DNA of 64,000 nt. Source: Longimicrobiales bacterium (lineage in GTDB: Bacteria > Gemmatimonadota > Gemmatimonadetes > Longimicrobiales > Gaopeijiaceae). Below, one piece after another: positions 9,208 through 20,240 of this stretch. The notes below the pieces were generated by a model that did no database searches, was not told the origin of the DNA, and worked only from the letters and a program-made list of their open reading frames with translations. The translations under genes and the position numbers were made by a program. The DNA lies in contig OX639991.1 of assembly GCA_951828585.1 (NCBI GenBank), forward strand, positions 1,396,576 to 1,460,575, given 5' to 3'. Position 1 is the stretch's first letter, and each line of letters opens with the position of its first letter.

Positions 9208-10317
9208 TCAGTCGACCAGGCGGAGCGGCATGACCAGACACAGGTAGTCCAACTCGCTCTCGGCAGGAACGACCGTGGCGGCCCGCTCCGCCGTTTTGAA
9301 CGCCACCTTCACGTCGCCGGCAGGCATGTTCCTGAGGACCTCGATGAGGTAGTTCGCGTTGAACCCGATCCGAAGCGCTTCCCCCTCATAGTCGAGTTCC
9401 AGCTCGTCGTGCGCCTCGCCCAGGTCGGGCGTCATGACGTCCAGGTGCACCCGGTCCGGCTCGAAGGACATCCTGATACGATGGGTCTGGTCGCTGGCCA
9501 GCACCGCCATGCGCCGCACGGCGGCCTCCATTGCCTCCTTGTCCACGCGCGCCACCTTGTCGTTGTCCTTCGGGATCACCTGCTCGTAGTTCGGATAGCT
9601 CCCCTCGATCAGGCGCGTGTAGACCTCCTGGTTCGTCGAGCGGAACCCCAGATGGTTGCCGCCCCTTCCCACCTCGATTTCCCCATCACCGTCGAAGAGG
9701 CGCTCCACCTGCGCCAGCGCCGCCGGCGGCACAATGAAGGCACCCGACGCTCCCGCCGCACCCCCCGTCCCCACCGCCGCGACCTCCATCTTGGCCAGCC
9801 GGTGCCCGTTGGTGGCCACCATCGTCATGCGGTCTCCAATCTCCCAGTACACCCCGTTGAGAATCGGCCGGCTCTCCTCGGTCGAAACCGCGAAGGCGGT
9901 CCCGCGGATCACCTGGCGCAGAGAGGCTTCCGACACGCTCCAACCCTCCTCGAAGTCCATCGCCGGAACGTTCGGGAACTCCTCGCTTGGCAGCCCGTTC
10001 AACTTGATGCGGCTGTTTCCGCAACCGATCTCGAGCTGGTGGCCGCGGCCGCGCAACTCAACGGGCTGGTCCGGCAACTCCCGGGTAAGCGCGAGTAACT
10101 TACGGCCCGGAGCTGTAATCGCTCCTCCCTGTGTGACTTCGGCCGGCACGCGGACACGGATGGAAACGTCGAGATCGGTGCCGCTGATCCAGACGGAATT
10201 GTCCTCGGACTCGATCAGTACGTTCGAGAGGACGGGAAGGGTGGTCTTGCCCGGAATGCTTGCGGAAACCGCGGCCAGCCCGCGCTGGAGGTTCTGCCGA
10301 GTGATGGTCAGTCTCAT
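9208..10317 (-). CDS. dnaN: DNA polymerase III beta sliding clamp
   Basis: 369 residues, normal length for the ring-shaped clamp that tethers DNA polymerase III to DNA. The N-terminus (MRLTITRQNLQRGLAAVS) and C-terminus (...MPLRLV) match the family, with the LPVLSNVLIE and EESRPILNGV segments expected of domains I and II. The gene follows dnaA on the same strand across a 318-base gap that holds the putative origin. Its promoter probably lies in that gap. Confidence 0.97.
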   Translation of the reverse strand: MRLTITRQNLQRGLAAVSASIPGKTTLPVLSNVLIESEDNSVWISGTDLDVSIRVRVPAEVTQGGAITAPGRKLLALTRELPDQPVELRGRGHQLEIGCGNSRIKLNGLPSEEFPNVPAMDFEEGWSVSEASLRQVIRGTAFAVSTEESRPILNGVYWEIGDRMTMVATNGHRLAKMEVAAVGTGGAAGASGAFIVPPAALAQVERLFDGDGEIEVGRGGNHLGFRSTNQEVYTRLIEGSYPNYEQVIPKDNDKVARVDKEAMEAAVRRMAVLASDQTHRIRMSFEPDRVHLDVMTPDLGEAHDELELDYEGEALRIGFNANYLIEVLRNMPAGDVKVAFKTAERAATVVPAESELDYLCLVMPLRLVD

Positions 10318-10635
10318 GAGTGCCCTGGATGGTCTTGGATTTGAGGACGAAATCCACAGGTGTCGGGGATCCTCTTATGAATTAGTAACAAGTAAATAGA
10401 AGATCGTCATCATAAGGGGTGTGGAAAGGTGGAAACCGACCGTCGGAGGATCGGCGGAGACCCAACGGCAATGCGGCGAACCGGGCCCTCCGGGCGCGAG
10501 TGGAAACCTGGAGGAAAAAATGGCGGCTTGGACATCCCAGGACGGCGGCTGTGGAAAAACCGGTGTGCTGACCCACTTTCCCACGCGGATTTCCACACGG
10601 CCAACCTTCAGCCGCGAGTTCTTCGAACCCGCTGA
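10318..10635. other. Putative chromosomal replication origin (oriC) between dnaA and dnaN
   Basis: The gap carries DnaA-box-like sites: AAATCCACA (10350-10358), CTTTCCACA on the minus strand (10420-10428), TTTTCCACA on the minus strand (10550-10558) and ATTTCCACA (10589-10597), each one or two bases from TTATCCACA. Further GTGGAAA half-matches lie at about 10429 and 10500. A markedly AT-rich stretch at about 10374-10414 is a candidate unwinding element, bounded by 10-base inverted arms CCTCTTATGA and TCATAAGGGG with one mismatch. Neighbouring dnaA, dnaN and the parAB-parS locus fit an origin. DnaA-box assignment is by eye. Confidence 0.75.
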
Positions 10636-12006
10636 TCAGGCACTCTTCTCGAGCGTTTGGCGCAGATCGTTGACCTGGGCCCGGAAGGTATCATCGTCGT
10701 CCATCCGTGCTTGGACCTTGCGGATCGAGTGGATGACCGTGGAGTGGTCGCGGCCGCCGAAGACGCGCCCGATCTGCTTGAGCGGTGTGTCCAGCAGGTC
10801 ACGGATCAGGAACATCGCAACTTGGCGCGGTTCGGTGATCGTTCGGCTTCGCCCACCCGACGCCAGCGCATCACCGGTCACACCCCACACCTTGCCCACC
10901 TCGTCCCGGATGGCTGCCGGATTCAGCAGCGGTGGCTCCTTCGGTTCCCCCAGGCCCGCCAGAGCCACATGCGCGAGGTCGAGCGTGAGCTCCTGGCGGG
11001 TCAGCGATGAGAAGGCGAGCAGCTTGATGATGGCGCCCTCGAGTTCACGCACCGAGACTGTGCAGCGACGCGCGATGAGGTCGAGGATCTCGGGTGCCAT
11101 GAAGACGCTGTCCTCGTCGGCCTTCTTGCGCAGGATGGCGACGCGTGTCTCGTAGTCGGGGCGGTCAACGTCCGCGACGAGGCCCCATTCGAACCGGGAA
11201 ACCAGGCGTTCCTCCAGCCCCTCGAGCTGCTTCGGATGACGATCGCTGGTCAGTACGATCTGGCGGCCTGCGTTGTACAGGACGTTGAATGTGTGAAAGA
11301 ACTCCTCCTGGGTGTGCTCCTTGCGGCGCAGGAACTGCACGTCGTCCACCAAGAGGAGATCATAGGAACGATAACGGGCTCGGAATGCATCGGTGGAATG
11401 CTCGTAAATCGCTGTCACCATTTCGTTTACGAACTGCTCAGCCGGGATGTAGCAGATTCGGGCGGCTTCCCCGTCCGCGAGCATCCGGTTGGCGATCGCC
11501 TGCATGAGGTGGGTCTTGCCGAGGCCGGTGGAGCCGTAGAGGAACAGCGGGTTGTAGAGGCGTGCCGGACGGTCGGCGACGGCAAGGCTAGCGGCATGGG
11601 CGAGCCGGTTATTGTCCCCTACGATGAACCGGTCGAAGGTATAGCGTGCGTTCAGGCCAGCGGGTGGGGGAGGCGGCGAAGAAGGAGCCGAAGCTACGGA
11701 CTCGGGTGCCACCACCTGGGTGACGGTGATCTCGGGTGAGGGCCGCTCCGCCGGTGGTCCTTCGGAGGTGATCCACAGCTCCACCGGCTCGCCCGTAACC
11801 CGCTCGGCGATGTCGTGCACCACGTCGCCGTACTTGTCCTCGAGCCACTCCGCGTGGAACCTGCTGGTGGCGGCGACCTGCAGGACGCCACCGGACCATG
11901 AGACGGCCTTCGCGCTGGAGATCCAGGTGCGAAACGCCTGTTCGGGAAGGCCTGGTCTGGCCTGTTCCAGGATGCGGTTCCAGAGGTCGGTGGCGCCCAG
12001 TGTCAT
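10636..12006 (-). CDS. dnaA: Chromosomal replication initiator protein DnaA
   Basis: 456 residues, usual length. Domain I occupies about 1-80, a proline-rich linker about 85-117, then the AAA+ domain with Walker A GSTGLGKT (158-165) and Walker B LLLVDDVQFL (217-226). The C-terminal domain IV contains the DnaA signature RDHSTVIHSI. It binds DnaA boxes and melts the origin; likely boxes lie just downstream of its stop and ahead of dnaN. No Shine-Dalgarno is visible before ATG 12006, and a strong inverted repeat sits 17 bases upstream in the leader. It is divergent from rpmH. Confidence 0.98.
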   Translation of the reverse strand: MTLGATDLWNRILEQARPGLPEQAFRTWISSAKAVSWSGGVLQVAATSRFHAEWLEDKYGDVVHDIAERVTGEPVELWITSEGPPAERPSPEITVTQVVAPESVASAPSSPPPPPAGLNARYTFDRFIVGDNNRLAHAASLAVADRPARLYNPLFLYGSTGLGKTHLMQAIANRMLADGEAARICYIPAEQFVNEMVTAIYEHSTDAFRARYRSYDLLLVDDVQFLRRKEHTQEEFFHTFNVLYNAGRQIVLTSDRHPKQLEGLEERLVSRFEWGLVADVDRPDYETRVAILRKKADEDSVFMAPEILDLIARRCTVSVRELEGAIIKLLAFSSLTRQELTLDLAHVALAGLGEPKEPPLLNPAAIRDEVGKVWGVTGDALASGGRSRTITEPRQVAMFLIRDLLDTPLKQIGRVFGGRDHSTVIHSIRKVQARMDDDDTFRAQVNDLRQTLEKSA

Positions 12007-16149: not shown

Positions 16150-18054
16150 ATGACAATGACTTACGACATAATCGTCGTGGGCGGCGGACACGCCGGCACG
16201 GAGGCGGCGGCAGCGGCCGCGCGTCTGGGAGCGAAGACCGTGCTCATCACCCCGGACCTGACGCGGATCGCGCAGATGAGCTGCAATCCGGCGATCGGGG
16301 GGGTGGCCAAGGGGACGGTGGCGCGTGAAGTCGGAGCGCTCGGGGGCGTGATGGCGCAAGCCACCGACGCTTCGCGCATCCACTTCCGCATGTTGAACCG
16401 CTCGAAGGGGCCCGCGGTCTGGGGCCCGCGGGCTCAGTGCGACCGGGCGCTGTACCCGATCGCGGTGCGGCGGATTCTCGACGGACTGGAGAACCTCGAC
16501 CTCTTCCAGGAGATGGTGACGGGGCTCCATTTCGACGGTGGGGTTCGGGGCGTGGAGACGCGCGGCGGGATCACATTCGAAGGGCGGGCGGTGGTGGTCA
16601 CGGCCGGGACGTTCCTGCGGGGGCGGATCCATGTGGGTGGCAGCGCGGCGCAGGGGGCGGGGCGGGCGGGGGAGGGGCCTTCGATCGAGCTCGCCGAGGC
16701 GTTGGAGGCGCGCGGGCTGGAGATGGCGCGGTTCAAGACGGGGACGCCGCCGCGCGTCGATGGCCGTTCGGTGGACTTTTCACGGTGTGAGCGCCAGGAC
16801 GGGGACGACGATCCGTTCCGGTTCGCCTTCTATGCGCGGGAACCGCTGCCGAGACAGCTGCCGTGCTGGATCACGTGGTCGGGCAAAGGCCTGAAGGAGA
16901 TCGTGACCGCGAATCTGAGGCGGAGCGCCCTCTACGGCGGGGAGATTGCTGGGCAGGGCCCCAGGTATTGTCCTTCGATTGAGGACAAGGTGGTGCGTTT
17001 CCCGAATGCGCGCCGTCATCAGGTGTTCTTGGAGCCGGAAGGGCTGGACACCACCGAGCTGTACGTGAACGGCCTTTCGACGTCGCTGCCTCCCGGGGTC
17101 CAGCTCGATTTCCTGAGGTCGATTCCGGGGTTGGAAGAGGCGAAGATGACGAAACCCGGATACGCCATCGAGTACGACTACTTCCCGCCCCACCAGCTGC
17201 ACCACACGCTGGAGGTTCGGGGGATGCCGGGGCTGTACTTCGCGGGGCAGATCAACGGCACGACCGGCTACGAGGAGGCTGCGGGCCAGGGACTGGTTGC
17301 CGGTGCCAATGCGGCGCTGGCCGTTCAGGGCAGGGAGCCGTTCGTCATCGAGCGGGACCAGGGATACATCGGGGTCCTCATCGACGACCTGGTCACCAAG
17401 GGTGTGGACGAACCCTACCGGCTCTTCACCTCCCGGGCCGAATTCCGTCTGCTGCTCCGTCAGGACAACGGCCCGAGCCGGCTGGGAACGCTGGCGCGCT
17501 CGGTGGGACTGCTGACGCCCGGACAGGAGGACGCGCTCAAGGAGCGGTTGGGTGAGGAGGAGCGGGCGAGGGCGTGGTTCGGCGGCCATTTGTTGACGCC
17601 CGCCGCGGCCGAACCGGCGTTGCGGGGGACGGGTGGCGGGACTCCTAAGCAACCGCAACGAGCGCGCGAACTCCTACGGCGACCGGGAGTTACGGCGGAG
17701 GGACTTCTTCAGGCGGCCGGAGAGGACGCGCCCGACTTTGATCCGGACGTGCTGGCCACCATCGAAATCGATGTCAAGTACGAGGGGTACGTGCGCCGCG
17801 AAGTGGAGCGGGCGCTGAAATTGCGGGCCCAGGCGGATTTCGCGATCCCCGCCGACGCGCCCTACAGTAACTTTGCGACCCTTTCTTTCGAGGCGCGCCA
17901 GAAGTTGTCCCACATTCGACCGCAGAATCTGGCCCAGGCGGGACGTATTCCGGGTGTGTCCCCGGCGGATCTTCAGAATCTGGTCATGGAGGTGCGGAGA
18001 TTGCGGTCCTCGACGCCCGAAGCGGAAGCAAGGTCGGCGACGGTTTCCAACTGA
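16150..18054 (+). CDS. mnmG: tRNA uridine-5-carboxymethylaminomethyl(34) synthesis enzyme MnmG
   Basis: 634 residues, usual length. The FAD-binding motif VVGGGHAGTEAA is at the N-terminus, with the family segments MSCNPAIGG, KGPAVWGPRAQCDR, FKTGTPPR and NGTTGYEEAAGQG. It is the flavin partner of MnmE in wobble uridine modification. Either ATG 16150 or ATG 16156 could be the start. In many bacteria rsmG/gidB follows; here the next 480 bases are non-coding and hold parS sites before parA. Confidence 0.98.
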   Translation: MTMTYDIIVVGGGHAGTEAAAAAARLGAKTVLITPDLTRIAQMSCNPAIGGVAKGTVAREVGALGGVMAQATDASRIHFRMLNRSKGPAVWGPRAQCDRALYPIAVRRILDGLENLDLFQEMVTGLHFDGGVRGVETRGGITFEGRAVVVTAGTFLRGRIHVGGSAAQGAGRAGEGPSIELAEALEARGLEMARFKTGTPPRVDGRSVDFSRCERQDGDDDPFRFAFYAREPLPRQLPCWITWSGKGLKEIVTANLRRSALYGGEIAGQGPRYCPSIEDKVVRFPNARRHQVFLEPEGLDTTELYVNGLSTSLPPGVQLDFLRSIPGLEEAKMTKPGYAIEYDYFPPHQLHHTLEVRGMPGLYFAGQINGTTGYEEAAGQGLVAGANAALAVQGREPFVIERDQGYIGVLIDDLVTKGVDEPYRLFTSRAEFRLLLRQDNGPSRLGTLARSVGLLTPGQEDALKERLGEEERARAWFGGHLLTPAAAEPALRGTGGGTPKQPQRARELLRRPGVTAEGLLQAAGEDAPDFDPDVLATIEIDVKYEGYVRREVERALKLRAQADFAIPADAPYSNFATLSFEARQKLSHIRPQNLAQAGRIPGVSPADLQNLVMEVRRLRSSTPEAEARSATVSN

Positions 18055-18066
18055 GAACCTGTCCAG

Positions 18067-18125
18067 CCACCGGCCCTCGAAGTTGAGCCACGAACCCACC
18101 GGCTCTCGAAGTTGAAGCCAACGAC
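18067..18125. repeat. Two-unit tandem repeat downstream of mnmG
   Basis: Two imperfect ~30-base units lie head to tail (18067-18095 and 18096-18125). Each starts CCACCGG, continues C(C/T)CTCGAAGTTGA and ends GCC(A)ACGA. They lie directly before the first parS site, in the same non-coding gap, and add to the evidence that this gap has grown by duplication. Confidence 0.7.
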
Positions 18126-18143: not shown

Positions 18144-18159
18144 TGTTCCACGTGGAACA
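18144..18159. promoter_or_regulatory. parS site 1
   Basis: A perfect 16-base palindrome TGTTCCACGTGGAACA, the standard bacterial parS form bound by ParB. It lies about 390 bases upstream of parA. The ParB encoded here has the usual HTH and CTP-binding box, so a functional centromere is likely. Confidence 0.92.
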
Positions 18160-18276
18160 CACCGTTGTTTCCCAATTGCGTCAAACCACCCCGCGGGGAA
18201 GCCGAAGAAGAATTCAAGGCCCACAACGGTCCCATGGGATGCCCCCGCCACGGGTCGTCATCGCCTCATCAGCGAC

Positions 18277-18293
18277 TGTTTTCCGTGGAAACA
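18277..18293. promoter_or_regulatory. Degenerate parS-like site 2
   Basis: TGTTTTCCGTGGAAACA at the junction of the two direct repeats keeps the TGTT...AACA ends and the GTGG half but has lost the exact palindrome. It is probably a decayed or weaker ParB site. Confidence 0.6.
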
Positions 18294-18408
18294 CCCTTTT
18301 TCCCAATTGCGTCAAGACCACTGCCGCGGGAAGCCGAAGAAGAATTCGAGGCCCACAACGGCCCCATGGGATGCTCCCGCCACGGGTCGTCATCGCCTCA
18401 TCAGCGAC

Positions 18409-18424
18409 TGTTCCACGTGGAACA
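18409..18424. promoter_or_regulatory. parS site 3
   Basis: A second perfect TGTTCCACGTGGAACA palindrome, at the end of the second direct repeat and about 115 bases before the parA start. Its closeness to parA also allows a role in control of the parAB transcript. Confidence 0.92.
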
Positions 18425-18537
18425 CCTCGTCCGTGTTAGATTCCCAAGAGGAGCAACGCAGCGCGCCGCCCAAGACTGTACGCTGGGCATGGTCACGGGC
18501 GTAGGAGGGTCCCCAATACCTTGAAAGGCCTGACGAT

Positions 18538-19335
18538 TTGACCCGCATCATCGCCCTCGCGAACCAGAAGGGTGGAGTCGGCAAGACGACGACTGCCGTC
18601 AACCTGGGAGCTTCATTGGCCCGGGTTGGCGAACGTGTCCTTCTGGTGGATGTCGACCCGCAGGGCAACGCTTCGAGCGGGCTCGGCGTCGTGGACCGGG
18701 GGAAGATCCCGACCACCTACGATGTGTTGATCAGGGGACTGCCCGCCTTCAGGGCGATCCAGTGCCCCAACGGCCACCCGAACCTCCATCTGCTCCCAGC
18801 CAACCGGGATCTGGTGGGGGCGGAGGTGGAGCTCGTCGGGGTTCGGGACCGGGAGACGATCCTGCGCGAAACCCTCGTCCCCGTCGCGCGGGACTACAAC
18901 TACGTCTTCATCGACTGTCCGCCATCTCTCGGGCTCCTCACGCTCAACACCCTGGCGGCCGCGGACTCGGTGCTCATCCCGATCCAGTGCGAATTCTACG
19001 CGCTCGAGGGGCTGTCCCAGCTCTTGAACACGGTGAAGCTGGTCCAGCGCAGCCTCAACCCGGCGCTCACCATCGAAGGCGTCCTGCTGACCATGTACGA
19101 CCAGCGGTTGAGCCTTTCCCGCCAGGTCGCGACAGAGGCGAAGAGGTACTTCGGCGACCTGGTCTTCCACACCGTCATCCCACGCAATGTGAGCATCGCC
19201 GAGGCGCCGAGCTTCGGGAAGCCGGTGGCGGACTACGCCCCGTCGTCGTCGGGAGCGCGCCGTTACGCCGATCTCGCGAGAGAGCTCAGGTCCCGCAGAA
19301 AGCAGCAAGACCAACAGGAGCAGCAAGAGCCATGA
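18538..19335 (+). CDS. parA: Chromosome-partitioning ATPase ParA (Soj)
   Basis: 265 residues. The deviant Walker A motif KGGVGKTTTAVN is near residue 11, with DVDPQGNASSGLG and FIDCPPSLGLLT as the A' and B motifs. It binds DNA as an ATP dimer and moves ParB-parS complexes. The start is TTG 18538 with a weak GAAAGG upstream; no ATG fits before the conserved N-terminus. Its stop overlaps the parB ATG (ATGA), and parS sites lie directly upstream. Confidence 0.96.
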   Translation: MTRIIALANQKGGVGKTTTAVNLGASLARVGERVLLVDVDPQGNASSGLGVVDRGKIPTTYDVLIRGLPAFRAIQCPNGHPNLHLLPANRDLVGAEVELVGVRDRETILRETLVPVARDYNYVFIDCPPSLGLLTLNTLAAADSVLIPIQCEFYALEGLSQLLNTVKLVQRSLNPALTIEGVLLTMYDQRLSLSRQVATEAKRYFGDLVFHTVIPRNVSIAEAPSFGKPVADYAPSSSGARRYADLARELRSRRKQQDQQEQQEP

Positions 19336-20240
19336 GCCGAACCGACCGCCTGGGCAGGGGTCTCAGCGCCCTTCTCGGAGAGTACGCTGGAGAGCCGCTC
19401 GCCGAGGGCGCCGACAACCCCGCACCCACGAAACTGCCGGTGAGGACGATCGCCTCCAATCCGTTCCAGCCCCGCAGGAGCTTCGTGGCCGCAGAGCTGG
19501 AGGAACTCGCCGCCTCGATCAAAGTCAACGGGCTACTGCAGGCAATCGTGGTCAGGAGGTCGGTGACCGGGCGCACCTTTGAACTGGTCGCCGGCGAGCG
19601 CAGGCTCAGGGCGGTCAAGCAACTCGGCTGGCGAGAGATCCCGGCCCAGATCCGTGACGTCGATGACCAGACCCTCCTGGTGCTCGCGCTGGTGGAGAAC
19701 CTGCAGCGCCAGGACCTGGGACCGCTCGAGGAGGCTCAGGGATACGCATCACTTCGGGATACGTTCGGTTATTCCCAGCGGCAGATCGCCGACTCGGTCG
19801 GGAAGAGCCGCTCCACGGTGGCCAATATGCTCCGCCTCCTGACCCTGCCTCCCTCCGTGCGGCGACTCGTGGAGGAGGGAGATCTTTCGATGGGCCATGG
19901 GAGGGCGATCCTGGCGGTGGATGATCCGGTCAAGGCCGCGGACCTGGCCCGGGAGGCGGTGGCGAAGGGATGGTCGGTGCGCGAGACGGAAAGGCGCATC
20001 CGCGAACTCCAACCGGGTGACTCCGCGGCCGGAGACAAGGAGACGGACGGCACTGCGGCACGGGATCCCGCCATCGATGTTCTCGAGGAGACGCTCGGCG
20101 CTCACCTGGGTGCGCGGGTCGCCATACAATGGAAGGGCAAGGGCACCGGCGCGATCCGGATTGGCTTCCGCGGAGTTCGGGATCTGGAGCGCGTCTTCGA
20201 GGCGGTTACGGGCAAGGAAGCGGCGGAAATCGTCGGGTAG
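19332..20240 (+). CDS. parB: Chromosome-partitioning protein ParB (Spo0J)
   Basis: 302 residues. The order is an N-terminal LGRGLSALLGE motif that contacts ParA, the ParB/Sulfiredoxin domain with the CTP-binding GERRLRA box, an HTH (YSQRQIADSVGKSRSTVANM) that reads parS, and a C-terminal dimerisation domain. It loads at the parS sites found 0.9-1.2 kb upstream and spreads as a CTP-dependent clamp. It is translationally coupled to parA by a 4-base overlap. Confidence 0.96.
   Translation: MSRTDRLGRGLSALLGEYAGEPLAEGADNPAPTKLPVRTIASNPFQPRRSFVAAELEELAASIKVNGLLQAIVVRRSVTGRTFELVAGERRLRAVKQLGWREIPAQIRDVDDQTLLVLALVENLQRQDLGPLEEAQGYASLRDTFGYSQRQIADSVGKSRSTVANMLRLLTLPPSVRRLVEEGDLSMGHGRAILAVDDPVKAADLAREAVAKGWSVRETERRIRELQPGDSAAGDKETDGTAARDPAIDVLEETLGAHLGARVAIQWKGKGTGAIRIGFRGVRDLERVFEAVTGKEAAEIVG

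Follow-up and report, generated by a model that had tools for sequence, protein, structure and literature searches.

A Tandem Duplication of a parS-Bearing Segment Upstream of parA in an Uncultured Gemmatimonadota Bacterium

The parS locus upstream of parA in an uncultured Gemmatimonadota bacterium is, in our judgment, likely to be a chromosomal ParABS centromere of the ordinary kind: two sites would be functional, a duplicate is decaying, and neither the spacing of the sites nor the spacer itself would have a function of its own. The locus lies in a 64-kb window, the whole stretch of DNA analysed here, on a complete contig of 4.47 Mb. The perfect 16-bp parS palindrome TGTTCCACGTGGAACA occurs in the window at 18144-18159 (site A, distal) and at 18409-18424 (site B, proximal), and a degenerate copy of 17 nt, TGTTTTCCGTGGAAACA, occupies 18277-18293 in the middle. 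Sites A and B match the parS consensus TGTTYCACGTGRAACA, which the middle site fails to do. Site starts are 133 bp apart from first to middle and 132 bp apart from middle to last, and the arrangement of two perfect sites and one degenerate site given in a preliminary description of this DNA is thus borne out by the sequence.

The repeated element is a 133-bp unit, composed of spacer plus parS, that has been duplicated in tandem. By alignment of the copies, spacer copy 1 extends over 18160-18276 and copy 2 over 18294-18408 (neither sites nor spacers are assigned a strand). The earlier proposal that the whole segment was duplicated is supported by a TRF score of 462, the next best repeat in the window scoring 58, and by a self-BLAST match of 155 bp (E 3e-43). 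The array amounts to approximately 2.1 units, and the outer sites alone are intact.

Setting of the locus and the proximal site

The downstream gene, parA (18538..19335, plus strand), encodes a ParA of 265 aa of the chromosomal type, in which the AAA_31 ATPase domain begins at residue 2 and the N-terminal HTH of type Ia plasmid proteins is absent. It is followed by parB (19332..20240, plus strand), whose product contains ParB_N, HTH_ParB, and ParB_C domains and has Caulobacter ParB (6t1f) as its closest solved chain. The locus therefore has the composition of a chromosomal ParABS system, namely a ParA with a Walker ATPase adjoining a ParB with ParB_N, HTH, and dimerisation domains, with oriC nearby. 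The genes dnaN (9208-10317) and dnaA (10636..12006) lie on the minus strand and are followed on the plus strand by yidC-mnmE-mnmG-[parS]-parA-parB-M23 peptidase-bactofilin, mnmG (16150..18054) being the upstream neighbour of the sites. Marked by dnaA, dnaN, and a turn in GC skew at approximately 10 kb in the window, oriC is located some 6-8 kb from the parS cluster. The dnaN-dnaA intergenic region at the skew turn (10318-10635), the probable oriC, contains a DnaA-box-like element, TTTTCCACA, at 10550 on the minus strand. Just past mnmG, a 20-bp segment, CCACCGGCYCTCGAAGTTGA, recurs at a spacing of 29 bp (18067-18115).

A search of the entire 4.47-Mb genome found no further parS with two or fewer mismatches, and matches with three mismatches occurred at the rate of a reversed-pattern control. 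One identical 16-mer with three mismatches to parS, AGGTCCACGGGGAACA, is present in 7 copies (G000:C1 positions 642759, 1961218, 2399513, 2466097, 2469047, 2741000, and 4350197) and is probably a piece of a dispersed repeat.

Site B stands 11 bp upstream of the -10-like element of parA, an extended element, TGTTAGATT, at 18434..18442 (plus strand). In 20 of 23 congeners an element of this kind (TTAGATT, TTAGGTT, TTAGCTT, or TATATT, often with an extended TG) stands 8-22 bp past the proximal parS, as against a mean of 0.2 and a maximum of 2 of 23 in mononucleotide shuffles. Because the -10-like element beyond the proximal parS is conserved, and the site is thus at the promoter in a conserved position relative to the -10, site B probably doubles as the parAB operator while also serving as a loading site. 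A comparable placement is that of P1gidB in Mycobacterium bovis BCG, where parS is positioned at a promoter of the par region and repression by ParB has been proposed (PMC2346475), although the BCG parS overlaps the gidB -10, whereas site B lies upstream of its element. Ahead of the proximal parS (18385-18408) is a CATCATC/GATCATC-like motif, which has the same position in several congeners and is also found within the tandem units of the relative G005; it may be the site of a second regulator.

Origin of the duplication and decay of the middle site

When the copies were aligned, 18 of 145 columns differed: 3 in the flank to the left of the first site, 4 in the site itself, and 11 in the spacer. 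The spacer differences (11/116) are unevenly distributed, with 8/41 in columns 24-64 and 3/75 in columns 65-139 (Fisher p 0.016), and so the near-identity earlier ascribed to the spacers is not uniform along their length. Both boundaries of the repeat fall at parS or within a few bp of it, exactly the pattern expected from exchange between the sites of a two-site ancestor. Sites 2 and 3 share a left flank, TCATCGCCTCATCAGCGAC, and site 1 has a different one, which indicates that the copied unit was the spacer plus the proximal site. In the sister genome G019, the sequence to the left of the proximal site agrees with the last 20-35 bp of this flank, and that in G013 and G007 resembles it; within spacer copy 2, the final ~20 bp are all that G019 has in common with it. 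The -10-like element is missing after the middle copy because the copied unit stops at parS.

We propose an ancestor with two parS sites, A and B, of which B adjoined the promoter of parAB. Through unequal exchange between these identical 16-bp sites, or through slippage during replication, this arrangement would have become A-spacer-B'-spacer-B; against the model, 16 bp is short for RecA-dependent exchange, so that slippage must be assumed. B', being redundant, would then have decayed, leaving A and B to load ParB and B probably to repress parAB through its overlap with the promoter region on the upstream side of the -10, with the 132-bp spacing and the spacer presumably neutral. A further counterpoint is the uneven distribution of differences between the copies, for which gene conversion, or constraint acting on the right two-thirds, could be responsible. 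Four-fold sites of parA have diverged by 28.9% (0.289) between this genome (G000) and G019. The divergence of the spacers is well below this value, and the duplication is thus probably lineage-specific and younger than the G000/G019 split; G019 is without the spacer.

Three substitutions and an inserted A separate the middle site from the perfect parS, and it retains neither GTTCCAC nor GTTTCAC, the half-parS motifs to which Pseudomonas ParB binds (PMC10419367). With four differing columns and no half-site, its decay, as originally described, is evident, and specific loading of ParB at this position is predicted from the half-site loss to be absent. One oriC-proximal parS, whichever it is, is enough in P. 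aeruginosa (PMC4368675), so that decay of a redundant third site is to be expected. The 17-mer of the middle site was found in none of the other loci compared and is, in that comparison, unique to this species.

It is unlikely, in our view, that the middle site has been altered rather than lost, either to bind ParB more weakly or to terminate mnmG transcripts by means of a hairpin (TGTTTTCC-GTG-GAAACA, with CCCTTTTT after it). The site has changed faster than the spacer (4 changes in 17 columns), and it can still form a weak hairpin (-1.9 kcal/mol) with a T run behind it, as such a role would allow. However, this hairpin is weaker than those of the intact sites, a terminator scan gave no call there, and both the lack of a GTTYCAC half-site and the confinement of the altered form to one species argue against such an alteration.

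Spacing and number of sites in relatives

In about 110 genomes surveyed from the family and order, the commonest state is two parS sites upstream of parA. The spacing of sites in these relatives ranges from 29 to >1,000 bp. A Rayleigh test at 10.5 bp (p 0.90) gave no sign of phasing, and helical phase was therefore rejected as the sense of the spacing. Two sites are also the state of the sister genome G019 and of most congeners, which lack the spacer described here; in 22 congeners nothing of it was found except approximately 35 bp directly left of the proximal site of G019. These comparisons bear on the idea that the spacer or the 132-bp spacing is itself selected, whether because the spacer carries sites for another factor or because ParB clamps require a working distance. 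The right 75 columns, with their low number of differences, favour such selection, as does the folding of the region's RNA, which is more stable than that of shuffled sequences (z -3.3), an effect due in part to the two distant palindromic parS copies pairing with each other. The absence of the spacer from the 22 congeners, the broad and unphased spacings, and the lack of an Rfam match nonetheless make a selected spacer or spacing quite improbable, and the suggestions that the spacer is under selection with a conserved unit length and that regular spacing is the key feature are not supported. The spacer as a known RNA was set aside on the Rfam result. As coding sequence it was likewise rejected, since the frames of 92-130 aa that cross it have no counterpart where the spacer is absent.

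The regular spacing of parS sites before parA was called unusual in the preliminary description, but to have two of them there is the commonest state in this family. Close pairs occur throughout the phylum, with zero control matches, and clusters with sites tens to hundreds of bp apart are present in loci from Clostridia, Alphaproteobacteria, and Myxococcota. That parS is carried by a mobile element or a dispersed intergenic repeat, although suggested by a repeated non-coding unit within intergenic space, is scarcely credible and for this genome is refuted: the unit was found at a single place in a search of the whole genome, one locus where a REP- or MITE-like element should have many copies, and the whole unit is present in 0/58 relatives.

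The ordinary-centromere reading has a close parallel in the chromosomal parS clusters of Myxococcus xanthus, which has 22 putative parS in a 3-kb cluster approximately 4 kb upstream of parA (PMC3899335), and with which the locus shares the type of 16-bp palindrome, several sites near parA and oriC, and a canonical chromosomal ParA and ParB. In the Myxococcota locus compared (Corallococcus, L143), however, similarity between sites hardly extends beyond the palindrome, whereas here a 133-bp segment was duplicated and one copy decayed. The F-plasmid centromere sopC (parS-F), which consists of twelve tandem repeats of 43 bp containing ten 16-bp inverted repeats (PMC6238139), is similar in that a centromere site is multiplied as a tandem unit with its flanks. 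It differs in being on a plasmid and in its ParB site and ParA type; a sopC-type array was rejected because the middle site is degenerate, the units number only about 2.1 with the outer sites intact, and a type Ia ParA is absent. Direct repeats upstream of parAB are also found in cisII/cisMP of Deinococcus radiodurans, 18-bp iteron arrays (PMC7671480) that are bound by ParB, but these lack a conserved parS palindrome, belong to secondary replicons, and have an origin function.

Other parS-bearing duplications in the family

The absence of this repeat from relatives leans toward a neutral duplication, as had been anticipated for that outcome, although parS-bearing duplications of other kinds occur in the relatives themselves. 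G013 contains 46-bp modules of 93% identity, in which intact sites are mixed with at least 5 decayed ones, and G005 contains 54-bp modules in which intact sites enclose two decayed ones; both are MAG contigs. Four parS at an exact 29-bp period in G323 (L203:758-860) form a small, chromosomal tandem centromere array that matches sopC in form. In G351, 78 bp at 85% identity recur in copies 115 bp apart; the repeats of genus g12 are 47-50 bp apart (31 bp at 100% in G122); and in G032 14 of 15 left-flank bases are common to the paired sites. Weaker cases in G023, G141, G142, G200, and G405, of 24-41 bp including the 16-bp site, may be due to chance. The units are unlike in length and sequence, for which independent events are the simplest explanation, and in the ParA tree G005 groups with G008, apart from G000, G019, G013, and G007. 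Flank similarity of the paired sites is at the null level for most pairs in relatives, so that an origin by duplication is not demonstrable for every pair. Within the genus, 8 degenerate parS matches were counted and 0 with the reversed pattern, 2 of the 8 being a single G005 site that appears at both contig ends. Beyond the genus no clear excess was found (18 vs 11 in the control).

These comparisons suggest that local copying of the same kind, with different units in different relatives, is a route by which bacterial centromeres gain and lose sites. A broader reading, which we advance tentatively and hold somewhat short of an even chance, is that the centromere of this family turns over in a satellite-like manner, with parS sites acting as recombination points that multiply segments, extra copies decaying, and selection keeping about two sites intact, one of them at the parAB promoter. 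Gain of parS by local tandem duplication and loss by decay, with a unit that differs among species of one family, is of more interest than the locus itself. The family-wide pattern is worth following because how bacterial centromeres expand is a stated open question (Tran et al.; PMC5815017), and the differing units within one family render that question testable by strain comparison. We found no paper on tandem parS duplication on chromosomes among the open papers searched, which does not prove that none exists.

Several features of the relatives' arrays may be recorded here. The contigs of G013 (L020 end, L071) and G005 (L028 end, L074) break inside the arrays of parS modules, which comprise intact and decayed sites. 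Both copies of the 115-bp repeat in G351 (L223:100-300) have a second palindrome-like element, CGTTTCCGCGGAAACG or CGTTTCCGCAGAAACG, beside parS. In genus g12 (L066, L181-L187), parS has the form TGTTTCACGGGAAACA and is followed by the half-site TGACGGTGAAACA, and it is this pair that has been duplicated.
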